In this document: positions 2,484-19,157 of the stretch, one piece after another
How the letters are laid out: each line of letters opens with the position of its first letter
How positions within the stretch are numbered: the stretch's first letter is position 1
Origin: a virus
Length of the DNA stretch: 20,141 nucleotides
Virus record (IMG/VR): IMGVR_UViG_3300031951_011088
Coordinates: 1-20,141 of that record
Reading direction: 5' to 3' (one strand)
The notes under the pieces: model-generated
Told to the model about the DNA's origin: nothing
What the model saw: only the letters and a program-made list of their open reading frames with translations
Database searches by the model: none
Position numbers and translations under genes: made by a program

Positions 2484-3619
2484 ATTTTTGCTCTTAATAG
2501 TGCGCTTCTTGCACGATTTGCTTTACTAAATTCTAAGCGATTTACAAGTTTAATTCCCTTAGAAACAAACCCTTCGCCGCCTGATTCTTTTCCTGCGATT
2601 TCAGTTTTGACACCGCCATGCGCAGTTTTATTTAGAGCATCTGCAAGAGCGTTAGTTGCTTGCTGAACGTGGTGATGAATTTCAAATGAGCGATTGAAGG
2701 CTTCTTTGTTATTATCAATGTGAGCCATGTGAGCATCGCGCTGCGCTGCTTTTTGATTCTTAGCCTTCTCAGTTTTTACTTTGTCGATTTCTTTTTGTAA
2801 TCTTCCGCCGAGGTGTTTCTTATAACCTTCGACGCTTGGCTTTTCGCCAGTATCAAGAGTTGAGTTTATATAAGTTCTTAAGTGTGTTTCATGACCTGCT
2901 AAATGACCATAGTCATGGTTTTTCATTAGAGACTGAGCAGCAGAAATATGTTCTAGGACTTTCTTTTTTGCTGCAGCAGGAATTTTTTGTTGTTCTTTTG
3001 AAACTGAGTGATCAACCAAATGCACATCTGGGTGAGAACGGAATTCTGACTGATCAATAACAGGCGTCGCCTTACGCTTTGGTCCTTTGAGTTCAGTATG
3101 AAGTGCTATACTGACTCTAGATTTAGCAAGTTTTTTGCCTTCTGAAGAATCTTTAGGGACTGAATATGAGACTGTATTAGGTGTGTGTCCAATACGACCA
3201 CCCTTTTCTTCACGAGTTTCAGGTGTGGACATAAACCCACCCTGCCATTCTCCAGATCTATTAGGAAGAATTTTATGAGCGTGTGCAAGAATAGTCTTTA
3301 ATGGACTTGCTAGATAAGGCTTGTGTCCATGCTGACGTTCAATGTCATCATTAGAATAATTATAACTTGAACCAGCGCCTTTATACTTTACTCCGACTTT
3401 GCCTGTGTCATCTCTTTTGATTTGAAATGACATTCTGTCGTCAATTTTACGAGTGGCTGGGGTACGACCCATCGCAACACCCCTGAGTGTAGTCAGAGCA
3501 TGTTGCGCGGGTTTCGGACCATCAAACGTCAGATCGGAAGGGTGCTCTATGTGCTGAATGCCAACTGCTTCTTTGGCTTCTGATAGAAATGATTCTACGA
3601 ATAGTCGAAATCGTTGCAT
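2480..3619 (-). CDS. Conserved phage protein, DUF6267-like, with a degenerate nucleotidyltransferase-like motif
   Basis: 379 residues starting at an ATG with a GGAAGGG-like ribosome site a few bases upstream. I recognise a phage family (DUF6267, from memory) by the N-terminal pattern, HTPNTVSYSVP at 144-154 and the C-terminal GKESGGEGFVSKG near 343-355. Family members usually carry a KWDGAP-type motif resembling the adenylation motif KxDG of ATP/NAD ligases. Here the matching stretch is KIDDRMS at 58-64, so the glycine is replaced by Asp. No function is established that I know of. The middle (about 215-320) is rich in Lys, His and Ala and probably helical. It ends in an ATGA overlap with the long multidomain gene, implying coupled translation. 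No signal peptide or membrane segment is visible. Confidence 0.85.
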   Translation of the reverse strand: MQRFRLFVESFLSEAKEAVGIQHIEHPSDLTFDGPKPAQHALTTLRGVAMGRTPATRKIDDRMSFQIKRDDTGKVGVKYKGAGSSYNYSNDDIERQHGHKPYLASPLKTILAHAHKILPNRSGEWQGGFMSTPETREEKGGRIGHTPNTVSYSVPKDSSEGKKLAKSRVSIALHTELKGPKRKATPVIDQSEFRSHPDVHLVDHSVSKEQQKIPAAAKKKVLEHISAAQSLMKNHDYGHLAGHETHLRTYINSTLDTGEKPSVEGYKKHLGGRLQKEIDKVKTEKAKNQKAAQRDAHMAHIDNNKEAFNRSFEIHHHVQQATNALADALNKTAHGGVKTEIAGKESGGEGFVSKGIKLVNRLEFSKANRARSALLRAKI

Positions 3620-3648
3620 TGCCCTTCCACGCTGTGGGAGAATATTAT

Positions 3649-3656
3649 CTATTTAG
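3649..3656 (-). promoter_or_regulatory. Possible T4-type late promoter, CTAAATAG
   Basis: Read on the minus strand, CTAAATAG lies about 30 bases before the ATG of the DUF6267-like gene, in one of the few intergenic gaps (3620-3652), and overlaps the stop codon of the preceding gene. T4 late promoters have the single element TATAAATA; this differs by TA to CT at the first two positions, plus the last base. Position and the phage-gene context downstream support it, but the motif is short and AT-rich, so it is tentative. Confidence 0.3.
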
Positions 3657-4444
3657 TATAGATTAGGTTTCATTGTACTCACAGCATTTACAAGAGCATC
3701 ACGAACATCTGACATTGCGTCATATGCTGGAATGGTGCAAGTAGAACGACCTGCCGCCGTTGCAGCGCGGAATTCGTCTGGCGTAAACCACTGAGGCTGG
3801 ATACCCATAATCTCAGCGAGTTCATGCATGTTCACAGAACCCTTGTTGACTAGGTTATAATACCCATCTGGAGCCTCATCCAACATCAAATCGCAGGCTA
3901 CATTGACCGCTTCATCAAGATCTGTCAAAGAATTTTGACCTGCATCGATCAATTTTGCGTTTTTGGCGTAGTTGTAGACCTTGTATAGGTAGTTTTTTGG
4001 CTCAACCTTACCCGTAAATGGCATACGAATACGATAGACCTGAGCCTTATCGCCCAAGTATACGTCTGAAACGCCCTTTGCAACTGAATAGGTGCTGCCA
4101 AAGAAGTTTGGTGGGGCATCTACGGTTTGAATATCGCCTGTATAGATACAACCGCTTGAAAAATGCGACATTCTGACGCCATTTTCCTCAGCAGCGGCAT
4201 ACAAAAGTCCTGGATAAATTGCGTTCCCGTAAACTGTATTCTGCTTATCCAATTCACAAGCATCCACGTTTGGAGTTCCAGTTACGCCAGCGCAATTTAC
4301 CACCCAATCATAACGGTTTTTGTGTAAAGCACTGATTGCAGAATTGTGGGATGCCATTGTTACGACAAATCCACGCTCCACCAAATTGTCGAATACCTTT
4401 TTACCTGTCCAACCACGACCAACTACTAGAAAATGCATAATCAT
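3653..4444 (-). CDS. NAD(P)-dependent sugar-nucleotide reductase, resembling bifunctional 4-keto-rhamnose 3,5-epimerase/4-reductase
   Basis: 263 residues, an extended short-chain dehydrogenase. It shows a dinucleotide-binding loop GRGWTG (9-14), FSSGCIYTG (95-103) and the catalytic YSVAK (119-123). The stretches NCAGVTGTPNVDACE (50-64), PPNFFGSTYS (111-120) and RIRMPF (138-143) match, from memory, the plant NRS/ER (UER1) and mimivirus L780 reductases better than bacterial RmlD. Those enzymes perform both 3,5-epimerisation and 4-reduction of the 4-keto-6-deoxy sugar. It follows RmlB and RmlA in one operon, with 2 bases between the RmlA stop and this ATG; a second Met at codon 3 could also serve. 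A plain RmlD-type reductase is the alternative. The product is probably an NDP-6-deoxyhexose such as rhamnose, made in the cytoplasm. Confidence 0.85.
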   Translation of the reverse strand: MIMHFLVVGRGWTGKKVFDNLVERGFVVTMASHNSAISALHKNRYDWVVNCAGVTGTPNVDACELDKQNTVYGNAIYPGLLYAAAEENGVRMSHFSSGCIYTGDIQTVDAPPNFFGSTYSVAKGVSDVYLGDKAQVYRIRMPFTGKVEPKNYLYKVYNYAKNAKLIDAGQNSLTDLDEAVNVACDLMLDEAPDGYYNLVNKGSVNMHELAEIMGIQPQWFTPDEFRAATAAGRSTCTIPAYDAMSDVRDALVNAVSTMKPNLY

Positions 4445-4446
4445 AA

Positions 4447-5319
4447 TTAAACCCTCATTGTCAAAATTTTGTTTAGATACTTACCATAATCCGACTTCTT
4501 ATACTTATTCGCCGCATATTCAAGATCCCATGCAGAAATCCATTCATTACGATATGCAATTTCTTCAGGGCAAGCAATCATCGTTCCAGTTCTACGCTGG
4601 ACTGAACCGACGAACGTTGACGCCTCAGCCAATGATTCAAACGTACCTGTATCAATCCAAGCAATACCACGGTTTAGATACTCAACGTTGACCTGATTCT
4701 GTTCTAGATACATTCGATTCAGATCAGTAATTTCCAACTCACCACGAGCAGATGGCTTGAGTTGTTTTGCATACTCAACAACCTTGTTGTCATAGAAATA
4801 CAATCCAGTAACGGCATAGTTACTTGGAGCAACTTCTGGCTTTTCAATAATGTCTACGGGGTCGCCATTCTCATCAAGTTTCAAAACCCCGAATCGTTCT
4901 GGATCATGTACATGATAGGCAAACAATGTACAGCCAGGATTACTCTGTGCGAAATTGAAACGATTGATTAGATCATTTCCATAAAAAATGTTATCGCCAA
5001 GAATCAAAGCAACGTCGCTCTTCCCAATCCACTTTTCAGCAATTAGAAAACACTCAGCAATACCATTAGGTTGTAACTGAGTTTCGTAAGATATTTGTAA
5101 ACCCCACTGATTTCCATTACCGATTAGATTCTCGAATGGTGCTCTATCAGCAGGTGAAGTGATAATCATAATATCACGAATGCCAGCAAGCATCAGCGTC
5201 GACAATGGATAATATACCAGCGGCTTGTCATAAACTGGCAATAGTTGCTTGGATACAACTTTCGTGCATGGATAGAGACGAGTTCCCAACCCACCACTCA
5301 ATATAATTCCCTTTCTCAT
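4447..5319 (-). CDS. rmlA: Glucose-1-phosphate thymidylyltransferase (RmlA)
   Basis: 290 residues, the usual RmlA length. It transfers a nucleotidyl group from dTTP to glucose 1-phosphate to make dTDP-glucose. Motifs are clear: GGLGTRLYP (9-17) binds the nucleotide, KQLLPVYDKP (24-33) is the RmlA signature, QPNGIAE (83-89), LGDNIFYG (107-114) with the metal-binding Asp, and later GELEITD and WIDTGT. I chose the ATG at 5319 rather than an upstream in-frame GTG at 5328, because it forms an ATGA overlap with the rmlB stop and gives the canonical MRKGIILSGG start. It follows rmlB directly, so the first two steps of deoxysugar synthesis are co-transcribed. Base preference (dTTP or UTP) cannot be fixed by eye. 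Confidence 0.95.
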   Translation of the reverse strand: MRKGIILSGGLGTRLYPCTKVVSKQLLPVYDKPLVYYPLSTLMLAGIRDIMIITSPADRAPFENLIGNGNQWGLQISYETQLQPNGIAECFLIAEKWIGKSDVALILGDNIFYGNDLINRFNFAQSNPGCTLFAYHVHDPERFGVLKLDENGDPVDIIEKPEVAPSNYAVTGLYFYDNKVVEYAKQLKPSARGELEITDLNRMYLEQNQVNVEYLNRGIAWIDTGTFESLAEASTFVGSVQRRTGTMIACPEEIAYRNEWISAWDLEYAANKYKKSDYGKYLNKILTMRV

Positions 5320-6263
5320 AAGTACCACTCCACTGTCTTTTCAAGACCATGTATAATATTAGTTTTCGCTTTCCATCCAAGTTCATTGTAAATCTTTTCA
5401 GCATTCATAGCATAACGCATATCGTGACCCTTTCTGTCTGTCACGAAATTTAACCAATCAGTATAACGATTGACATCCTTACCCATAATCTCAAGAATCA
5501 ATTTGATCATTTGAATGTTTGTCAATTCAACTCCACCACCGATATTGTATCGCTCGCCAGATTTGAAATTCTGACCGATCGTCAACAAAGCCTCGCAGTG
5601 ATCTTCGACAAACAACCAATCGCGAACGTTGATGCCCTGCCCATAAACAGGGATTGGTGTATTGTTTTTGATGTGGCGAATAATCGTTGGAATAAACTTT
5701 TCGTTGTGCTGACGAGGACCGTAGTTATTCGAACAATTAGTCACAACCGCGTCAATCTTATGTGTGTTTACATAAGCACGAACCAAATGGTCGCTGGCTG
5801 CTTTGGTTGCTGAGTATGGATTGCGAGGATCATATGGAGTTGTTTCACTAAACTCAGGATCATTAGGACCAAGACTTCCATAGACCTCATCAGTCGAAAC
5901 ATGGACTAACTTGCCGCCATACTTGCGAATGCACTTTAGAATGTTGTGAGTGCCATTAATATTAGTGCTGAGGAAATCATCGTCACCACGAATAGAATTG
6001 TCAACGTGAGACTCAGCAGCAAAATGAAACGTAATGTCTGGTTCATAGGTGTGATAGATCCCATCCAGTGAATCTAGATTGCGAATGTCGACTTTCTTGA
6101 CGGTAAGTCGCCAATCGTCGTAGTATCCGTTTAGATTTGATCCGTTAGCAGCGTATGACTGATTGTCAAGAACGACAATCTCATCGCTAGGATATTTTTT
6201 CAGGTGAGAGATTACAAAATTAGAACCAATAAATCCCAAACCGCCAGTCACAAATGTCGTCAT
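5316..6263 (-). CDS. rmlB: dTDP-glucose 4,6-dehydratase (RmlB)
   Basis: 315 residues. It converts dTDP-glucose to dTDP-4-keto-6-deoxyglucose with bound NAD. The Rossmann loop GGLGFIG is at 7-13, the Asp of VLDNQSYA at 33 fits ribose binding, the catalytic triplet region HVSTDEVYG is at 121-129 (T124, D125, E126), and the YxxxK pair is YSATK at 150-154. NCSNNYGPRQ and the later RDWLFVEDH are family signatures. The ATG overlaps the stop of the HExxH-protein gene as ATGA, and its own stop overlaps the rmlA ATG. A TATAAATA element lies about 128 bases upstream inside the preceding gene. It is slightly shorter than many bacterial RmlB proteins but shows no missing core motif. Confidence 0.96.
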   Translation of the reverse strand: MTTFVTGGLGFIGSNFVISHLKKYPSDEIVVLDNQSYAANGSNLNGYYDDWRLTVKKVDIRNLDSLDGIYHTYEPDITFHFAAESHVDNSIRGDDDFLSTNINGTHNILKCIRKYGGKLVHVSTDEVYGSLGPNDPEFSETTPYDPRNPYSATKAASDHLVRAYVNTHKIDAVVTNCSNNYGPRQHNEKFIPTIIRHIKNNTPIPVYGQGINVRDWLFVEDHCEALLTIGQNFKSGERYNIGGGVELTNIQMIKLILEIMGKDVNRYTDWLNFVTDRKGHDMRYAMNAEKIYNELGWKAKTNIIHGLEKTVEWYL

Positions 6264-12508: not shown

Positions 12509-12698
12509 TTTGTTTCATCCTCTCGTATGATTTAAATAGATTTTTATCTTTCATGTTTTGGACAATTCCATTCTTATAATATTCACCACTTGTCATTGTC
12601 CATACATCCTTACCAACTTTTAAACTCCAACCATTGAACTCTTTAATATGAATTTCTTTTGAAACTAAGAATTCTTTTAATTCAGATAGACTATTCAT
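12435..12698 (-). CDS. Small uncharacterised protein
   Basis: 87 residues with no family I recognise. The first 67 residues look like a real small domain (helix, then GWSLKVGKDVWTMTSGEYYKNG with beta-like alternation, then a Lys-rich helix). The last 20 or so, rich in Arg and Ser, lie over the start of the next gene in another frame and look like read-on sequence. The ATG sits inside the end of the sugar kinase gene (8-base overlap), which supports coupled translation. A true stop further upstream lost by mutation could explain the overlap. Confidence 0.6.
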   Translation of the reverse strand: MNSLSELKEFLVSKEIHIKEFNGWSLKVGKDVWTMTSGEYYKNGIVQNMKDKNLFKSYERMKQNVEHQSTKTRKWRGISCRSSRADR

Positions 12699-13449
12699 CT
12701 AAACAACTCCTAGCGTATATTGCAGAACCTATTACTCCTGCACTGTTTCCATATTTTGCTTTATAAATTTTACTCGGAGAAATTAAATACTTATGCCATT
12801 GATCCCAAGCGTCGCTTATTCCTCCACCAATTACAATATTATCTGGCCAAAAGCATTTATTGATTTCTTCTAGATACAAATTAACTCTTTCAGCGTATTC
12901 TTCCCAAGTTAAATTCATCTTTTCTATCAAAAGTGCTGATGCAATTAGTTCGGCATTATCTATTCCGTTAGGTAATGCCATTCTTCCGAATTCAGTGTTT
13001 AACAATAGTGAATTATTGTGATAGATTGCAGTTCCTATCCCAGTTCCAAAAGTTAAAAATACCGTAACTCCTGGAAGATTTTTAATAGCACCAAATTTTA
13101 TTTCAGCCATCGCGGCAGCATCAGCATCATTTAACACTTCGCAGTTAACACCAAAATATTCTGTTGCTAACTGCTTGATGTTTAATCCATACCATTCTTT
13201 ACCAATATTAGGTGCAGTTTTCGTGATACCTTCTTTGACTATGCAAGGTATCCCGAAACCTATTACGTCATATTGATCTGATATTTGTTCTTTTATGCTT
13301 TTAAACAAAACATCAGGATGTTCGTTTTTGGGCGTTTTAATTTTAAAGATCGTTTCACATTCACCAGTTGAAGTATCAACTAATCCTATTTTAGTGAATG
13401 TACCACCAACATCTACTCCAAGAACATTATTCAGTTGCTTCGCTTGCAT
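12691..13449 (-). CDS. ppgK: ROK-family sugar kinase resembling polyphosphate glucokinase
   Basis: 252 residues against about 265 for mycobacterial PPGK. The family phosphorylates glucose to glucose 6-phosphate using polyphosphate or ATP. Seen: phosphate-binding DVGGT at 13-17, FGIPCIV at 65-71, TAPNIGKEW at 78-86, NDADAAAMAE at 107-116 with the catalytic Asp, LTFGTGIGTA at 132-141, NTEFG at 151-155 and IVIGGGIS in the C-terminal half. By eye these fit strictly polyphosphate-type glucokinases better than general ROK kinases, but the phosphate donor cannot be read. It is complete, with no frameshift. It overlaps the preceding small gene by 23 bases. In context it could feed glucose 6-phosphate to the RmlA route after mutase action, or tap host polyphosphate. 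Confidence 0.88.
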   Translation of the reverse strand: MQAKQLNNVLGVDVGGTFTKIGLVDTSTGECETIFKIKTPKNEHPDVLFKSIKEQISDQYDVIGFGIPCIVKEGITKTAPNIGKEWYGLNIKQLATEYFGVNCEVLNDADAAAMAEIKFGAIKNLPGVTVFLTFGTGIGTAIYHNNSLLLNTEFGRMALPNGIDNAELIASALLIEKMNLTWEEYAERVNLYLEEINKCFWPDNIVIGGGISDAWDQWHKYLISPSKIYKAKYGNSAGVIGSAIYARSCLDE

Positions 13450-13633
13450 CTCTATTTTCAGTGTTGCGCTTGAGTTTATGTCTCACATGGCTGGCATGGG
13501 CATCAATAAAAAGTTTTTTGACCTTACCATACTCATGAGAGTCTTTGACCCAGCCATTCGCTTGTTCCATAGCGAGCATGCGCTTGAATCCGCGTGGCAA
13601 CTTTGCACCAAAAAAATCTGATCTATTAGCCAT
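13427..13633 (-). CDS. Small conserved phage protein, function unknown
   Basis: 68 residues, basic and predicted helical. The pattern GAKLPRGFKRMLAM (9-22), EYGKVKKLFIDAHASHV (34-50) matches, from memory, a small uncharacterised protein shared by T4-like environmental phages. The ATG overlaps the end of the glycosyltransferase gene by 8 bases, and the last 23 bases overlap the sugar kinase gene. The Glu/Thr-rich tail lies in the dual-coding part. No catalytic or membrane signature is visible, so no function is proposed. Confidence 0.75.
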   Translation of the reverse strand: MANRSDFFGAKLPRGFKRMLAMEQANGWVKDSHEYGKVKKLFIDAHASHVRHKLKRNTENRDASEATE

Positions 13634-14309
13634 TCAATAATTCCTCACATTTATTCCAAAAACGTTCTTGCTGACCAGGTTGGAAAATTTGCCAGCAATG
13701 CCAAAACAAAGGTTTATCACCTTCTCCATAAGTTGTACCAATACCAAAATTAGGCATTCCATCAGCCAAAGACCAATATGGTGGTAGGTTTTGTGGTTCC
13801 CATGCCATTCTTAAAGGAGGAGCATCGTAACTTAATGGCATTAGAAGATGTACGTCTATATTATTCTCTCTAGCCAAATAAGTCAACTCTTCTGCAACGT
13901 CGCCTCTAGGAGTTGGCTCAAATGATGGCTTACCGATTCTTGAGTACAAATCCATAGTGAATCCAACATTATGAGCGCCACAGAAAACATGCTGATTATT
14001 GTCAATATGATTGGTTCTTTGCGCGTCACCGATCAGTTTACCGTTATATACGTTTTCAAACATAAAGTCAATAGCAGAATCATCAACTGGAACGCAGTCA
14101 ACGTCTAAAAATAATACTGCATCATGACCCATTTGCTCTAACATAGGCATCAATAGAGTCATAGTGGCGCCATGAGTCCCGCCAGTTATAACTTGATGAA
14201 AGGTAATGTTTGATTTATTGAATTTATCTACTACTGCTTTCTGTAGAGTAGTAGTCTTTTGATCAATATTTTGCATGTATACTGAAATGATACAAGGATT
14301 TCTGTTCAT
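13626..14309 (-). CDS. Putative GT-A type glycosyltransferase
   Basis: 227 residues. VLFLDVDCVPVDD (65-77) holds a DxD (D69, D71), which in GT-A enzymes binds the metal and the sugar nucleotide. The fold order (beta-strand ISVYMQN, helix, DxD strand, later GAHNVGFTMD and EPTPRGDVAEEL) suits a nucleotide-diphospho-sugar transferase. The ending FWHCWQIFQPGQQERFWNKC is, as I recall, common in phage relatives. The ATG shares one base with the stop of the GDPD-like gene (TAATG). It lacks membrane segments and is probably cytoplasmic. Acceptor and donor are unknown; the neighbouring glycan genes suggest surface or virion sugars. Confidence 0.75.
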   Translation of the reverse strand: MNRNPCIISVYMQNIDQKTTTLQKAVVDKFNKSNITFHQVITGGTHGATMTLLMPMLEQMGHDAVLFLDVDCVPVDDSAIDFMFENVYNGKLIGDAQRTNHIDNNQHVFCGAHNVGFTMDLYSRIGKPSFEPTPRGDVAEELTYLARENNIDVHLLMPLSYDAPPLRMAWEPQNLPPYWSLADGMPNFGIGTTYGEGDKPLFWHCWQIFQPGQQERFWNKCEELLNG

Positions 14310-14764
14310 TAATTTGCCTCTCTATATTTTATTGGAAAGTCTGTGCATATACCAAAACATGATTTAATTTCTTGCTCTGGGAATTTTTCAGGCATAACTG
14401 CGATACTATTTTTTATTGGCTGCTTGCCTACATATGCCCAAATGTAGCCATTACTGGTTAGAGTAATCGTATCTGATTCGTGCCAAAAGTAATTGTAGTT
14501 ATACAAAGTATTTAGTTCTTGTAGTTCCACTACTGCATCAACATTTTTACAGTGAATCCATAATTGTTTGCTATGTTTTTGCAAAAAATCTACGGAGACT
14601 TCATTGATAGGATCATCATGACCTAGAAAAAATTTGCCATCTATAAACCATAAATCTATTTCAACATCAAAACCAAGACTGACTGCCAATTCTATACTAG
14701 AAATTGAGTTTTCAGAAACAGGATCTGGTCCTTGAACATTTCCTCGATGTGATATTATTCTCAT
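14309..14764 (-). CDS. Short glycerophosphodiester phosphodiesterase-like protein
   Basis: 151 residues, against roughly 240 or more for typical GDPD enzymes, so it lacks the usual C-terminal part of the barrel. The catalytic signatures are present: SHRGN (5-9) with His-Arg, SEN (17-19), the metal ligands in VEIDLWF (E35, D37), LGHDD (48-51) with the second His, and a Lys at 73. The family hydrolyses glycerophosphodiesters; in glycan clusters a related protein could act on glycerol-phosphate-linked sugars, which is inference. No signal peptide. It overlaps the methyltransferase stop as ATGA and the next ATG as TAATG. Similar short versions occur in polysaccharide loci, as I recall. Confidence 0.78.
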   Translation of the reverse strand: MRIISHRGNVQGPDPVSENSISSIELAVSLGFDVEIDLWFIDGKFFLGHDDPINEVSVDFLQKHSKQLWIHCKNVDAVVELQELNTLYNYNYFWHESDTITLTSNGYIWAYVGKQPIKNSIAVMPEKFPEQEIKSCFGICTDFPIKYREAN

Positions 14765-15420
14765 AGTTTTTTAGTTACGAATGCAATACCCCAATCATCA
14801 TTGTTTGTGCAGTGATAGTCTACGTTCCACATTTCTCTGTTGAGTGCTGCGCAAAACTCTCTTGGTCCTGGGTGATAATTGGTGTCATGAAAAACAACTA
14901 CACCATGATCTGACAATAGATTAGTATATTCCCAATCTCTAATAACTTGCATAATACTGTGCCAACCATCAATAAACAGTAAATCTATAATTTCAACTCC
15001 GTGACTTTTCAAAACAGAAACATTGGTATTGTAATTAGAAGAATCATTATGAATGATGTGAACGTTGTTGCTGATATCATTCAAATATGTTTTATCAATC
15101 ACATCAATACCAAAGTATTTTGTCTTTTTGCGCTTCAATTCCAACATAATTGAACTAAAACTTTCACCTTCTTTAGTGCTGCCGCCATCTTTTTCTATTC
15201 TGTTAACACCTATTTCAAGAATAGCATCAGTTGATTTAACTCTAGAAGAAAATAGTTTTCTGAAAGCATCTAAATTGCAGTCAGAAATTTCTTTAGCAAT
15301 TAAAGGACCTGAGTATATTGCGCTATCCTGATCCACGTGCACTTGACTATTAACGGTAATATCTTTGATTAGATCATATTTCCATTTTACATGTTTATTG
15401 TTTTCGTAATATGTGCTCAT
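14761..15420 (-). CDS. SAM-dependent class I methyltransferase
   Basis: 219 residues. Motif I is ILEIGV (67-72), the acidic ribose-binding residue is D106 in YFGIDV, the motif DLLFIDGWHS is at 146-155, and VVFHDTNYHPG (175-185) fits the Methyltransf_24-type family that acts on small molecules, sugars and cephalosporin-like acceptors. The stretch between 73 and 95 is charged and likely a loop over the active site. A clear GGAGA ribosome site lies 5 bases before the ATG, in an 18-base gap after the RuBisCO-like gene, one of the few real intergenic spaces here. It probably methylates a sugar or other intermediate of the glycan pathway; substrate is inferred only from neighbours. Confidence 0.85.
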   Translation of the reverse strand: MSTYYENNKHVKWKYDLIKDITVNSQVHVDQDSAIYSGPLIAKEISDCNLDAFRKLFSSRVKSTDAILEIGVNRIEKDGGSTKEGESFSSIMLELKRKKTKYFGIDVIDKTYLNDISNNVHIIHNDSSNYNTNVSVLKSHGVEIIDLLFIDGWHSIMQVIRDWEYTNLLSDHGVVVFHDTNYHPGPREFCAALNREMWNVDYHCTNNDDWGIAFVTKKL

Positions 15421-15438: not shown

Positions 15439-16677
15439 TTAAAATTCTAAAACCCACTCAGGCAAACTTCCACCGTCGGTCTTGTACCCCCACTTTTCAA
15501 TAGCAACACGAAACTCTGGTCCTGGTGTCTTGTCAATAGCCTGACGCATAGCAAGAGCACCTGCTAGTGTACCACCTGGGTGTCCGTGAATGGCACCACC
15601 GCAGTTAGCAAGAAAATCTGTACCAAACTTCTCAGCAGTTGGATTTACAATTCCAGGATGCATACCGCAACTCAATGCTGGCAAAGTGTTGCGCTTGTGT
15701 AGCACTTCCATCGTATTTCGCAGTTCCTCAATATCATCGCTGAGATAACCACCCCACATTCCAGCATGGATTGTATCCACGCCACATAGTCCTGCGAGAT
15801 CGCAGAGCACAGCCCAATCAATACCAAAAGGATTGCGCTTGTCAGTAAGAATCTTATCGCCACTCTTTTGATAGTGTACAAACAAAGGCAAGTCTAGTTT
15901 GCGAACTGAGTTGTATACACCCAAGCCACTCCAGAAGTTGATGTGGATGCCATTACCACCGTTGGCTGCTACAAACTTAGCGCGATCCAAAATAGTGTGA
16001 TGATCACCGTTGATACAGAAGCAGTAGATTACACCACGACCGCAATTGTTTACGATATTGCTGATTAGTTCAACTCTATCTTCCAAACGGCAGAACGAGG
16101 GATTGGAAAGGATTTCATCTTCCTTGATAAAATCAACACCACCATCCAGTAGTTCTTTAACCATGTCTGCCAAAGTAGCAGGACTAATACCTGTCTTGGG
16201 TTTGACAATGCCGCCTGACAAAGGCTTGTCATAACGATTTACAAACTTTCTAATACCTGTGATACCACGCTTTGGTCCAAGGAAGTAGGCTTCTACATCT
16301 GGTGGGAATTCAATCTTCTTCAAGCGACAGGCTTTGAATACATCGATGTCCATCTGTCCGCCCATCAACTGGCACATGAGATGGCTGATACCGTCGCCTT
16401 CCCAGTCTGAATTTACTTTGGGGAATCCAATCTGCACTACGCCAGAATGTTTACCAACCAATTCACTTTCATCATGATAGATTACACAACTAGCAAGTTC
16501 AAACAGCGCATCACTTTCCCAACGGTTTCTGACTTTGGGATTACCCACACTCTGTCCGATAGCAAGGTTCCATGCGGCATCTCTAAGATCGCCAATTTCG
16601 CTATAGGTTTCAATGTAGTATGTTACTACAACACAACGATCTCGTTCTGCTGGAGTTAATTCTCTAAAAAACTTCAT
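15439..16677 (-). CDS. RuBisCO-like protein (form IV-type), phage-encoded
   Basis: 412 residues, complete, RuBisCO large-subunit fold. By-eye alignment to plant numbering: Lys175/Lys177 are K159/K161 in GGIVKPKTGIS; carbamylated Lys201, Asp203 and Glu204 are K185, D187 and E188 in DFIKEDE; His294 is H268; His327 is H304 in IHAGMWGGY; Ser379 is S336; Gly403/Gly404 are G360/G361 in NCGGAIHGHPGG. Replaced: Glu60 by Gly41, Asn123 by Gly107, Arg295 by Tyr269, and the loop-6 Lys334 by Tyr311. So metal and phosphate binding seem kept while carboxylation residues are lost: an enolase, isomerase or decarboxylase-like RLP is expected, not CO2 fixation. I chose ATG 16677; a GTG three codons earlier also exists. 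It overlaps the cupin gene by 14 bases and is richer in GC than its flanks. Confidence 0.93.
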   Translation of the reverse strand: MKFFRELTPAERDRCVVVTYYIETYSEIGDLRDAAWNLAIGQSVGNPKVRNRWESDALFELASCVIYHDESELVGKHSGVVQIGFPKVNSDWEGDGISHLMCQLMGGQMDIDVFKACRLKKIEFPPDVEAYFLGPKRGITGIRKFVNRYDKPLSGGIVKPKTGISPATLADMVKELLDGGVDFIKEDEILSNPSFCRLEDRVELISNIVNNCGRGVIYCFCINGDHHTILDRAKFVAANGGNGIHINFWSGLGVYNSVRKLDLPLFVHYQKSGDKILTDKRNPFGIDWAVLCDLAGLCGVDTIHAGMWGGYLSDDIEELRNTMEVLHKRNTLPALSCGMHPGIVNPTAEKFGTDFLANCGGAIHGHPGGTLAGALAMRQAIDKTPGPEFRVAIEKWGYKTDGGSLPEWVLEF

Positions 16678-16987
16678 ACTTATCACCCTTCACGCTAGGA
16701 GTTTTAACGCACAATACTTTACAATCTTCTAAAAATTCTGGATTGGCAATTTCATTTGGCTCTAACACAAAAACATCACCAGATTCAATTACTTCTCCAC
16801 AAATACGCATCTTACCTGACAGCAGCACATTATATTCAGTTGCAACTGCATGATAATGTTTTGGCCAAACTTCGCCTTTCAAATGAGTCAACACACCAAC
16901 CTCAAATTCTGAGGTCTTTAATATGCTTGGTTCAAAATTTCCAATGAACCATCCACGCCAAAATTCATTAATGTTTCGCTTTATCAT
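16664..16987 (-). CDS. Small cupin-domain protein
   Basis: 107 residues, a single cupin barrel. Motif 1 is perfect: G38, five residues, H44-Y-H46, four residues, E51, six residues, G58. Motif 2 starts at G70 with P77, but the usual fourth ligand His is Asn82. Cupins of this size include isomerases, epimerases, dioxygenases and sulfur lyases. It overlaps the nucleotidyltransferase gene by 20 bases and the RuBisCO-like gene by 14, so the three are one translational unit. In Rhodospirillum rubrum a cupin processes the product of an RLP (1-methylthioxylulose 5-phosphate); sequence kinship to that cupin is not shown here. As I recall, similar small cupins ending in GDKY occur beside sugar genes. 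It is too short to be RmlC. Confidence 0.88.
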   Translation of the reverse strand: MIKRNINEFWRGWFIGNFEPSILKTSEFEVGVLTHLKGEVWPKHYHAVATEYNVLLSGKMRICGEVIESGDVFVLEPNEIANPEFLEDCKVLCVKTPSVKGDKYEVF

Positions 16988-17693
16988 ATCTTAAAAATCT
17001 ATCCAAGTCAACTGGAACACCAACTGCATGATGTTGTTCGTTTGGTATATGATGAATCCCAACTTTTAAGCCACGCTTAATCATATAATTGTATGAAGGA
17101 GCGATATAGAATTCGCCGTTAGGTGCTCTATCTTGAGCGACAATCATATCCCTTGCACTTTCGACGAAGTATTTACCCTTCCTCCAATAATGAATACCAT
17201 TAAGGCTGATATTACTTATAACTTCTTTTTCACGAATCTCGCAAACATAACCATTACTATCTAGTTTAGCGTAACTATTTTTATCAGTATCTGAGTAATA
17301 TGTTACAACTAGCCCATCATAAATTTCGCAGCGAGCATTGTGCAAAAATTGAAAAGAATTCCATTCCATTATTTGATCGCAGTTAGCAACAATAAGTTCT
17401 TCATCATTGTTGATGTAATCTTCAAACAAAAGAGCAGAAATGGCTGGTCCCTCAGTCACATAATCTATTGCAATTATAACGCAGCCAGGTTTAGTTGATT
17501 TTAATACCTTTTCTATTTCATGCTGATACTCGTCTTTACGAATCAAAAAAAAGTAATTACATTGAGGTATGCCAAGAGAATTAATTGCTCTTACAACCAT
17601 CGGAGTCCCATTAACATCTATCAGCGGCTTTGGTGTTGAGTATTCTTTTTGGAATCTAACGCCCCTGCCAGCCATTGGAATTATAACATTCAT
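16968..17693 (-). CDS. Sugar-phosphate nucleotidyltransferase
   Basis: 241 residues, NTP_transferase family. The N-terminal IPMAGRGVRFQ (5-15) and STPKPLIDVNGTPMV (19-33) are the nucleotide-binding G-x-G-x-R and the PKPL signature. NCDQIMEW supplies the metal-binding Asp, and NGEFYIAPSYNYMI is typical late in the fold. It makes an NDP-sugar from a sugar 1-phosphate and NTP; which sugar and NTP is not evident. It differs from the RmlA at 4447, so the phage encodes two different activating enzymes. The start codon ATG at 17693 lies 4 bases after the stop of the glycosyltransferase gene, and its 3' end overlaps the cupin gene by 20 bases, tying it to the cupin and RuBisCO-like genes. Confidence 0.88.
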   Translation of the reverse strand: MNVIIPMAGRGVRFQKEYSTPKPLIDVNGTPMVVRAINSLGIPQCNYFFLIRKDEYQHEIEKVLKSTKPGCVIIAIDYVTEGPAISALLFEDYINNDEELIVANCDQIMEWNSFQFLHNARCEIYDGLVVTYYSDTDKNSYAKLDSNGYVCEIREKEVISNISLNGIHYWRKGKYFVESARDMIVAQDRAPNGEFYIAPSYNYMIKRGLKVGIHHIPNEQHHAVGVPVDLDRFLRYDKAKH

Positions 17694-17697
17694 GATA

Positions 17698-18444
17698 TTA
17701 ATTAAATCTTGTTAGAAGACCTGCTTTAAATACTGGAAAATCTCTAGAATGATCTTCTATTTGAATTCCATGTTTTGCAAAAACTTCTTGTGCTATTTTC
17801 CAATCTTCGATAATTTTTTGATGCGCCTCGTGAACCTTCTCAGTTGTAACGCGCATTACAGTCATAACTACCCAATTGTATAGCCAAAAATTTGTTCTGC
17901 CGTTCATTTCTTGATTTTTATGGAACCAAACATCACCAAAATGCTGCACTAGTTCTTCAGGGATAGGCTTATAATTATTTTTATGCACAAACATACAGCA
18001 GCCATATCCATCTATAGTCTCGTGGCAGGGAACCATTTCAAGTTTTTGAATTAGTTCTATATTTTCTTCCATTCTATTAAAAAATGCTGGATGTGGGTAG
18101 ATCATACCCACTGACTCTCTGGGAAATTGTTCAGATTTATATGCGTCAGCCAAAGAACTAAAAATTGCAGGATCAAAAATAACATCGTCATTTAACAAAC
18201 AAATTAATTCAAACTTAGAATTTTCTACTCCAACATTCAAACTTTTATTGAAAAATAAATTCTTACCGAAATCTAGAATTTTAACTTTTTCATTTGTTAA
18301 ATTCTCATCTGTCGGTCTATCTTTAGAATTGTTATCAATAATGATTATTTCGCCGACTGCATCGTTACCGACCATAAACTTCAACATCTGAAGAAAATAG
18401 TCATTAGCCATCCACATTGTTGGAACTATCACAGAAAATTTCAT
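17698..18444 (-). CDS. Glycosyltransferase, family 2
   Basis: 248 residues from the ATG at 18444. GT2 signature: MKFSVIVPTMWMAND at the start, EIIIIDNNSKDR for the nucleotide-binding strand with DNNS, and ICLLNDDVIFDP holding the DxD-like NDD. It would transfer a sugar from an NDP-sugar to an acceptor. In-frame ATG at 18447 and TTG at 18456 exist, but GGAGGG at 18454-18449 is best spaced for 18444, and the upstream stop TGA overlaps ATG at 18447. No membrane helix, so it is cytosolic or peripherally bound. It follows another GT2 gene and precedes the nucleotidyltransferase, consistent with a glycan assembly operon. Acceptor and linkage cannot be inferred. Confidence 0.9.
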   Translation of the reverse strand: MKFSVIVPTMWMANDYFLQMLKFMVGNDAVGEIIIIDNNSKDRPTDENLTNEKVKILDFGKNLFFNKSLNVGVENSKFELICLLNDDVIFDPAIFSSLADAYKSEQFPRESVGMIYPHPAFFNRMEENIELIQKLEMVPCHETIDGYGCCMFVHKNNYKPIPEELVQHFGDVWFHKNQEMNGRTNFWLYNWVVMTVMRVTTEKVHEAHQKIIEDWKIAQEVFAKHGIQIEDHSRDFPVFKAGLLTRFN

Positions 18445-19157
18445 CATTCCCTCCAAGGTAACTTATCATTATACATTTTATTCATCTTGGCATTTCCTTC
18501 CAAGAAAAATTCTTTGTTTACAGATCCCTCATTTCCGCCCAATCTATAGCACATGGTGTACTTTTTACTGCATTCAAATTTGTTAAAGTAATTCATAAGA
18601 GTATAGAAAAACTTTCTATCTGCTCCCCATTTTCCATACCAAGAATGTCCAACTTGAACTGCGACTTCAGTTTTTACTGCAAAACATGAGGTATCTATGT
18701 GATGAACTCTGTGATCAAACCAAGTTGGCCACTTGCCTAAATTTTCGCAATTATCTTCACAAATAAAATTCTCATCTTTATCGTAAATTTTGCGAAGGCT
18801 ATATGCCCAAGAAAGATTATTTTTATCTACTAATTCTACTAGGCTCTCAACATGATTAGGTTCTATCCAGTTATCTTGGTCTAGATAAATGATCAAATCG
18901 GCATTTACAATGAAAGAACAAGCAGCATATACTCGATGACCATACCAGCCTTTGCCGACGTTATCTTCTAACTGAACAGTTTTAATTGTTCGCTTGCCTG
19001 CTGCATCATAAAGCATCGGATGAATTTTATCATAGTGTTCTTGTCCATCCAAAAACACGTAATGAGTTAGATTTTCATATGTTTGTTCTTGTACGCTAGA
19101 CAAACACTTTTTAAGATCAGGCGATCCTATTGTTGGAGTAACTACTGCAACTTTCAT
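18444..19157 (-). CDS. Glycosyltransferase, family 2
   Basis: 237 residues. VAVVTPTIGSPDLKKCLSSV opens the GT-A fold, SVQEQTYENLTHYVFLDG is the classic second strand, and LIIYLDQDNWIEPNH carries the DQD metal/sugar-nucleotide motif. A cluster of Trp and His residues around WPTWFDHRVHHID and SWYGKWGADRKFFY may form the acceptor site. The start overlaps the oxygenase stop as TAATG, and the stop TGA overlaps the next gene. It is distinct in sequence from the neighbouring GT2, so at least two different sugars or linkages are likely. No transmembrane segment. Function as a surface or virion glycan enzyme is inferred from context. Confidence 0.9.
   Translation of the reverse strand: MKVAVVTPTIGSPDLKKCLSSVQEQTYENLTHYVFLDGQEHYDKIHPMLYDAAGKRTIKTVQLEDNVGKGWYGHRVYAACSFIVNADLIIYLDQDNWIEPNHVESLVELVDKNNLSWAYSLRKIYDKDENFICEDNCENLGKWPTWFDHRVHHIDTSCFAVKTEVAVQVGHSWYGKWGADRKFFYTLMNYFNKFECSKKYTMCYRLGGNEGSVNKEFFLEGNAKMNKMYNDKLPWRE
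18449..18454 (-). promoter_or_regulatory. Ribosome binding site setting the glycosyltransferase start
   Basis: The minus strand reads GGAGGG, 4 bases before the ATG at 18444 and only 1 base before the ATG at 18447. It also encodes the last Trp-Arg of the preceding protein. The spacing favours the 18444 start over the longer TTG-initiated reading. Confidence 0.6.

Follow-up and report, generated by a model that had tools for sequence, protein, structure and literature searches.

A distinct clade of phage-encoded RuBisCO-like proteins with a possible role in the supply of nucleotide-activated sugars

We report a RuBisCO-like protein (RLP) of a phage that belongs to a distinct clade and recurs beside a small set of partner genes. 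Our reading, which we put near but short of an even chance, is that it is a non-carboxylating enzyme of a nucleotide-sugar or nucleotide-polyol supply module, most likely an isomerase or epimerase acting on a substrate of the ribulose-5-phosphate type. A role of the module in making glycan precursors is likely; that the substrate is a pentulose phosphate, perhaps a 5-phosphate, is our guess. The first-pass annotation had proposed a non-carboxylating RLP that takes part in a glycan or sugar pathway of the phage and has a phosphorylated sugar as its substrate, a proposal that the comparisons below appear to support and sharpen.

Results

The RLP gene and its product

The window, by which we mean the whole 20,141-nucleotide stretch analysed (IMG/VR record IMGVR_UViG_3300031951_011088), carries the RLP gene on its minus strand, with these features:

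15439..16677, minus strand: RuBisCO-like protein (RLP), 412 aa, ATG at 16675-16677
16686, minus strand: alternative GTG start of the RLP
16555..16557, minus strand: codon of G41, at the Glu60 position; Gly in 43/43 family rows
16357..16359, minus strand: codon of G107, at the Asn123 position; Gly in 43/43
16114..16125, minus strand: codons of K185-E186-D187-E188, the carbamate and metal site (K201/D203/E204); K, D and E unchanged in 43/43
15745..15747, minus strand: codon of Y311, at the loop-6 Lys334 position; Tyr in 43/43

The frame is complete and resembles the RuBisCO large subunit, as had been claimed for it: in a profile search residues 138-382 matched PF00016 at 143.6 bits (cut-off 30.1; E 1.1e-41), and the AlphaFold model reached a pLDDT of 91.6 and a pTM of 0.90. 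The best Foldseek match to this model was the form III RuBisCO 2d69 (TM 0.85, 27-28% identity), and VIA-align gave Z 43 both to 2cwx and to MtnW 2zvi; because form III, MtnW and other RLPs all score about equally (Z about 40-43), the fold cannot tell the sub-family of the RLP. A fold search of BFVD returned weak matches only (best TM 0.38). With a PF00016 score over the curated cut-off and the fold to match, the RLP is a member of the RuBisCO large-subunit superfamily. Between the window gene and eight viral homologues pN was 0.10-0.26 and pS, which is saturated, 0.77-0.84; for L042/L044, the only other pair printed, dN/dS was 0.09. The gene is under strong purifying selection.

Active-site residues of the family

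The list of RuBisCO active-site residues was taken from the excerpted text of PMC9570433 and PMC5786004, and 19 residues were mapped by motif. Counts refer to 43 aligned family rows, 25 viral and 18 from cellular assemblies, among which one viral row (L041) and one MAG row (L082, counted as cellular) are identical; W66, where the placement of gaps is uncertain, was set aside. K175, K177, K201, D203, E204, S379 and G381 are unchanged in all 43 rows, so that the metal site which the first-pass annotation described as kept (K185, D187 and E188 of the window protein) is kept throughout the family. Its replacements of Glu60 by Gly, Asn123 by Gly and Lys334 by Tyr (G41, G107 and Y311) likewise recur in every row, and the sequence alignment restored no equivalent of these three residues. 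T65 is replaced by Asn, H294 by Gln and G380 by Cys, again in 43/43. The proposed change of Arg295 to Tyr, however, does not hold: alignment of the window's HYQKSGD to HIHRAMH-type motifs pairs R295 with K271, H294 with Q270 and H298 with D274, and position 295 is Lys in 40 of the 43 rows, Ser in two and Arg in one. The phosphate glycines had also been thought intact, which is true of G381 and, in 41/43 rows, of G403, but not of G380, which is always Cys, or of G404, which is Ala or Ser in 41/43. H327 is kept in 40 rows and is Gln in the other three.

On this pattern the family keeps the enolisation machinery and has lost the residues needed for CO2 addition. We take R295 and H327 to be the holders of the C5 phosphate of RuBP, and T65, W66, K334, G381, G403 and G404 to be those of the C1 phosphate; on that assignment the C5-phosphate side is probably mostly kept in this family and the C1-phosphate side partly remodelled. 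K177 is kept in none of the 25 other rows taken as form IV, namely three OiaX, five 'NonPh', one MtnW, four 'BactX', three 'Photo' and nine 'BactLow' rows (the quoted names are labels of this analysis). The 'NonPh' and 'BactX' rows retain E60, N123, R295 and K334, so the loss of these residues is not general among such groups.

Placement among RuBisCO-type enzymes

In a careful tree of 81 rows, for which no root was inferred, the 43 family rows form one clade (support 100/100), separate from forms I-III and from every other RLP group sampled; the 13 rows of forms I-III group together (99/96), as do OiaX and its relatives (100/100). The three 'Photo' rows, which come from genomes of the phylum of G010 and whose label rests on length and abundance only, are separate from the family clade. 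The RLP thus lies among none of forms I, II, II/III and III, in keeping with what the first-pass annotation had foreseen, and E60, N123 and K334, expected of a bona fide RuBisCO, are absent from 43/43 rows. We would place it in the form IV grade, that is, among RuBisCO homologues whose carboxylase residues have been replaced. Every NCBIfam score of the window RLP was sub-threshold: 188.6 bits against a cut-off of 497 for form III, 147.5 against 700 for OiaX (NF042437), and, for the two MtnW models, 146.6 against 409 (NF007095) and 110.1 against 513.6 (TIGR03332).

Reference rows were named in part by models of this kind. The OiaX rows L164, L165 and L171 pass NF042437; the MtnW row L172 passes NF007095 (431.2, cut-off 409) and misses TIGR03332 (368.6, cut-off 513.6); L115 and L131 pass the large-subunit model PRK04208 and were taken as form I; L151, L152, L110, L112 and L113 pass PRK13475 and were taken as form II or, in a label that we assume, II/III. 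The model for form III identifies L105 and L106, and L107 passes none; for L134, L140, L158, L173 and L170, as for the BactX, Photo and BactLow rows, the label comes from score, length or group.

The form III RuBisCO of Pyrococcus and Thermococcus shares with the RLP its fold, K175/K177/K201/D203/E204, S379 and mostly H327, whereas in the RLP E60, N123, K334, R295, H294, T65 and G380 are replaced and the protein falls outside the form III clade. MtnW, the form IV DK-MTP-1-P enolase, has the same fold and metal site, and its row also lacks E60 and K334; unlike the RLP family, which in most rows keeps these residues or has Lys, the MtnW row is without K177, H327 (Leu) and R295 (Pro). OiaX, the form IV 3-oxo-isoapionate-4-P decarboxylase, resembles the RLP in fold, metal site and the Gly at 123, but its rows retain K334 and R295, lack K177 and form a separate clade (100/100).

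A further divergent RuBisCO-like group, of about 370-425 aa and with low PF00016 scores, was seen in about 30 of the 345 genomes searched (phylum of G010; e.g. G458, G744 and G430). Nine members were fetched (L193-L201), eight of which form one clade, and 8/9 have E204 replaced by His and nothing aligned at K177.

Distribution in viruses and cells

A scan of IMG/VR found 264 stretches that encode RLP relatives, of which 80 loci were kept; an alignment-based scan found 282 stretches and kept 80, one of them new. At the 80 kept viral loci the RLP is 55-100% identical to that of the window and near full length except in L040, which is cut by a contig end, and with such relatives the frame cannot be a chance one. 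A tblastn search of the RLP against 50,697 phage records gave no match. Among plasmids 359 records matched, all below 60% identity, and the 15 listed lie at 29-32%, several of them annotated as OiaX.

Contigs of GTDB genomes supplied 32 loci, 23 of them closer (L082-L104, 36-67% identity) and the rest more distant (L105-L113, 22-30%). By the names of its source genomes the closer set covers SAR11 (Pelagibacteraceae), Legionella species, Azospirillum, Elusimicrobia, Verrucomicrobia, Patescibacteria, Pacearchaeota/Nanoarchaeia/Woesearchaeota and Bacteroidota. Cellular occurrence is sporadic: within the SAR11 family group 2 of 197 genomes have the RLP, one being the centre genome itself, and within the Legionella genus group 5/22, where four copies are near full length and three of those were already known.

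Viewed from the side of the other groups, Legionella, Azospirillum, Elusimicrobia, Verrucomicrobia, the DPANN archaea and one SAR11 group lie outside the mainly viral part of the clade, a branching order that is consistent with viral acquisition of the RLP from cells. Six rows with cellular labels (L082, L083, L085, L087, L097 and L100) sit among viral rows, which may reflect either transfer or mis-binned viral contigs. One of them, L082, is a 3.3-kb contig in a 'Crocinitomicaceae' MAG; its RLP is identical to that of the viral L041, so a viral origin of the contig, with binning into a bacterial MAG, is probable. L083, L085 and L087, on short contigs, may be viral too.

What kinds of virus carry the gene? 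In 39 RLP-bearing viral records, taken from 81 viral loci largely for their length and searched whole, the T4-type capsid protein gp23 was encoded in eight and a Photo_RC-family protein in six, which indicates that some carriers are T4-like and some probably cyanophages; both counts are lower bounds, as most records are fragments. The earlier assignment of the window to a T4-like phage is borne out by L001, a record of 197 kb that encodes gp23 (G772) along with an RLP identical to that of the window. RLP and nucleotidyltransferase genes were also seen on viral contigs of jumbo-phage size: L046 (518 kb), L272 (327), L292 (400) and L318 (316).

Gene neighbourhood and module partners

In the window the RLP lies within a single minus-strand run of genes: nucleotidyltransferase, cupin, RLP, methyltransferase, GDPD-like protein, a 227-aa protein and a ROK kinase. 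Successive genes among the first three overlap, the cupin gene sharing nucleotides with both the nucleotidyltransferase end and the RLP start. The neighbours are:

17698-18456 and 18444-19157, minus strand: two family-2 glycosyltransferases
16968..17693, minus strand: nucleotidyltransferase, 241 aa; PF12804 3e-7; best solved relative 4evw, an NDP-sugar pyrophosphorylase
16664..16987, minus strand: small cupin, 107 aa; Cupin_7 4e-4 (below cut-off), phrog_24762 2e-34
14761..15420, minus strand: methyltransferase (PF13578), the next gene after the RLP; a variable partner, its cluster in 28/104 loci
14309..14764, minus strand: GDPD-like protein, 151 aa; HRG/EN/ExD/HD motif; phrog_34507 4e-31; Pfam GDPD below cut-off
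13626..14309, minus strand: 227-aa protein of the same gene run, no family match
12691..13449, minus strand: ROK-family sugar kinase; closest to polyphosphate-glucose phosphotransferase (208.5 bits, cut-off of 250 missed)
3653..6263, minus strand: dTDP-sugar genes, RmlD-like (weak), RmlA (TIGR01207 over cut-off) and RmlB (TIGR01181 over cut-off)

The HxH...E motif of the cupin is largely kept. Pfam GDPD was detected in 2/18 GDPD-like members at E 0.1, and the model of the GDPD-like protein had no match in the PDB at E 0.001 (best 1v8e, E 1.1e-3, TM 0.49); the name therefore reflects the motif and weak matches only. The RmlA, RmlB and RmlD-like genes represent a second nucleotide-sugar route in the window. 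The ROK kinase lies downstream of the module, and among the 114 loci described in the next section (mostly with 4-kb flanks) a homologue was seen only in L253 and L254, which come from records with an RLP identical to that of the window. Rfam and tRNA scans of the window returned nothing.

Across 104 loci (the window, L001-L103 without L081, and L114; L104-L113 were dropped), genes within 7 kb of the RLP, nearly always on the same strand, included the nucleotidyltransferase in 98, the GDPD-like protein in 75 and the cupin in 73; an RmlA-type gene of L087 is included in the nucleotidyltransferase cluster. Since the RLPs of the window, L001 and L002 are identical and many viral rows are close, loci were collapsed at 70% RLP identity. 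Within 2.5 kb, the resulting 21 lineages have the nucleotidyltransferase in 18, the cupin in 15 and the GDPD-like protein in 13, with an NAD-epimerase in six and the methyltransferase in three, so that the association with cupin and nucleotidyltransferase, which the first-pass annotation had suggested looking for in viral metagenomes, was found in most lineages. The nucleotidyltransferase link extends to the outer branches Legionella and Elusimicrobia; three of the 21 lineages, that of Azospirillum (L099) among them, have no nucleotidyltransferase within 2.5 kb.

Some neighbours are more local. Beside the module, the SAR11 loci L090-L093 carry a gene of the ThyX cluster (in L090, at 3525-4469, matched by Pfam Thy1), and in L090-L094 and L096 the RLP is flanked by two genes of the nucleotidyltransferase cluster. 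LicD adjoins the RLP in L101 (Legionella nautarum), and the same gene cluster occurs in L102 and L103. As a general partner LicD was rejected: PF04991 was found in 1/39 RLP viral records and 0/5 cellular genomes searched, a rarity that leaves a phospho-polyol transfer step unsupported as a general feature.

Exchange of the front-end enzyme in related phages

Searches of the 50,697 phage records with the partner proteins, one genome's duplicates being counted, gave three matches to the cupin, 16 to the GDPD-like protein and 19 to the nucleotidyltransferase, 18 of the last in Synechococcus phages. Seven regions of cultured cyanophages were read, and in these the partners share operons with genes for epimerases, glycosyltransferases, kinases or HAD hydrolases. 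The nucleotidyltransferase is often a fusion protein there, joined to LacAB_rpiB in Bellamy, to DHBP_synthase (RibB) in S-SKS1 and to HAD_2 in S-CAM9 and B23; the S-SM2 protein is longer and has nucleotidyltransferase matches only. The S-SKS1 fusion gene is annotated only as DHBP synthase. The cyanophage fusions (Bellamy, S-SKS1 and S-CAM9) contain the same nucleotidyltransferase family, but the RLP is absent and another enzyme stands in its place. Beside the RpiB type, as in Bellamy, the cupin and GDPD-like protein are mostly retained; the RpiB version is also carried by the culturable cyanophage SynMITS9220M01. Fusion genes were located as follows:

L205 6847-8001, L211 6001-7425 and L208 4299-5681: nucleotidyltransferase (NTP transferase) fusions in cyanophages, with an RpiB-type, RibB or HAD part

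At 105.2 against a cut-off of 88.3, the RpiB part clears the subfamily model TIGR00689, but it misses the ribose-5-phosphate isomerase B equivalog TIGR01120 (103.4, cut-off 138.65 bits); the RibB part passes TIGR00506 (189.8, cut-off 177.45). By eye, typical motifs are kept in both. In IMG/VR the RpiB fusion has 30 related loci, Bellamy itself being one, and the RibB query has 11, of which L252 matches only in the nucleotidyltransferase part.

The set assembled to follow this exchange comprises 114 loci (L205-L318), fetched mostly via partner proteins, two of the queries being the fusions themselves; it overlaps the first RLP set (many contigs are the same), consists mostly of fragments, and its counts are not phylogeny-corrected. 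The RLP is present at 56 of these loci, a nucleotidyltransferase with RpiB at 32 (30 with the cupin), a nucleotidyltransferase with RibB at 11, and HAD with the nucleotidyltransferase but no RLP at nine, six loci being of other kinds. RLP and RpiB occurred together at 0/114 loci, and over whole records the RpiB family was found in 0/39 RLP records and in 4/4 control records with the RpiB fusion. Two of the 56 RLP loci also have HAD with the nucleotidyltransferase, so HAD is not simply an alternative to the RLP.

In a quick tree of 42 nucleotidyltransferase domains with SH-aLRT support only, RpiB-fused domains group with RLP-linked ones of SAR11 and Nanoarchaeia (98), HAD-fused domains with RLP-linked ones of SAR11 (96), and RibB-fused domains may lie near viral RLP-linked ones (86). 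The RLP-linked nucleotidyltransferases do not form a single clade, and the Bellamy and S-SM2 double-domain proteins fall among them as well. Fusions and tree together suggest one broad nucleotidyltransferase family that changes its front-end enzyme.

Discussion

What reaction might the RLP catalyse? Typical RpiB and RibB both use ribulose-5-phosphate, and RuBisCO chemistry begins by enolising a ribulose phosphate; the ribulose phosphate common to all three is the basis of our substrate proposal. In its specific form, which we hold only tentatively, the RLP would be a carbamate-activated pentulose-5-phosphate isomerase or epimerase, recruited to biosynthesis and widely carried by phages, whose product, a new sugar phosphate, the nucleotidyltransferase would convert into an undescribed nucleotide-activated pentulose or polyol for surface glycans, with RpiB- and RibB-type enzymes as interchangeable front ends. 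The enzyme would be a dimer, as we assume from the superfamily, in which the active site needs both chains. K185 would carry the carbamate and, with it, Mg, K159/K161 would take part in proton transfer, and the substrate would be held by its 5-phosphate at K271/H304. The RLP would remove a proton from the pentulose phosphate via a Mg-bound enediolate and reprotonate it elsewhere to give an isomer. The cupin may process this product, the nucleotidyltransferase would activate it, and glycosyl- or phosphotransferases would add the activated sugar to a surface glycan of the phage or the infected host; the GDPD-like protein may act on a phosphodiester of the same pathway. The first of these steps are read from conserved residues, the later ones from gene context.

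Several observations weigh against this proposal. The RpiB part scores below the TIGR01120 cut-off, so the substrate of the RpiB enzyme is itself not fixed, and hexose and tetrose phosphates too are among the substrates of the RpiB family. RibB yields a 4-carbon product and HAD a product of the hydrolase or mutase type; as these products differ, the swap may mean different sugars and not one shared step. Of the two residues that we take to hold the C5 phosphate, R295 is Ser in 2/43 rows and H327 Gln in 3/43. The nucleotidyltransferase family is broad, with RLP-linked members that are not one clade. It is quite conceivable, though on balance doubtful, that the RLP does serve glycan precursors but acts on a hexulose, heptulose or tetrulose phosphate, or as a decarboxylase or aldolase-like enzyme, in place of a pentulose-5-phosphate isomerase. 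The module and glycan context would then be the same, the one model that the RpiB part clears is the broad RpiB/LacA/LacB one, to which galactose-6-P and erythrulose-4-P isomerase models are related, and the operons of Bellamy and S-SM2 hold genes annotated or modelled as a heptose-type kinase or phosphoheptose isomerase; yet no such alternative unites RibB, RpiB and RuBisCO as ribulose phosphate does.

A role in methionine salvage or an isoprenoid-linked pathway, in which a DeepYkr-like RLP and a cupin methylsulfurylase would lead to DXP and then to an IspD-like nucleotidyltransferase, seems improbable to us. In the excerpted text of PMC5893883, R. rubrum and R. palustris pair an RLP, the DeepYkr methylthioribulose-1-P isomerase, with a cupin, as is the case here, and the nucleotidyltransferase has a weak similarity to IspD (TIGR00453 2e-4). 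Unlike in DeepYkr systems, however, the RLP here has nucleotidyltransferase and GDPD-like partners, and the MtnA family (PF01008) was found in 0/39 RLP records, many of them fragments; the tree contains no named DeepYkr sequence. MtnW and OiaX models score far below cut-off, the best solved relative of the nucleotidyltransferase is an NDP-sugar pyrophosphorylase, and neither the RpiB/RibB swap nor the glycosyltransferase context fits. It is hardly credible that the protein is a real or degenerate carboxylase that fixes or drains carbon during infection: PF00016 homology and the cyanophage-like appearance of some carriers (Photo_RC in 6/39) would speak for it, but E60, N123 and K334 are lost in 43/43 rows and the family lies outside forms I-III. 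A non-catalytic, structural or regulatory use of the RuBisCO fold is very improbable as well, given that the metal site, K175 and K177 are invariant over deep divergence and that the gene is under purifying selection; we found no point in favour of it.

Viral RuBisCO-like genes have been encountered before. The excerpted text of PMC12607003 counts a viral protein from a landfill as one of its 'RbcL-like' proteins, refers to a viral RbcL published before and flags rbcL as a gene that random IMG/VR viruses carry too; that of the GOS paper (PMC1821046) mentions 65 RuBisCO homologues outside known groups, among which the present family may be found. In the open PMC literature we found no description of this clade, its residue signature, its module or the partner swap.

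Non-carboxylating relatives are a model for the evolution of RuBisCO chemistry. To our knowledge, those with an assigned function serve sulfur salvage and sugar-acid breakdown; the clade described here retains a larger share of the RuBisCO enolisation site, K177 being part of it, and appears to serve the building of glycans, in phages that seem to include cyanophages. The partner swap names a short list of candidate substrates. If the substrate is ribulose-5-phosphate or a relative of it, the family would bear on how an isomerase and a carboxylase can share one active site, and it would give a handle on the unusual sugars that phages put on surfaces.
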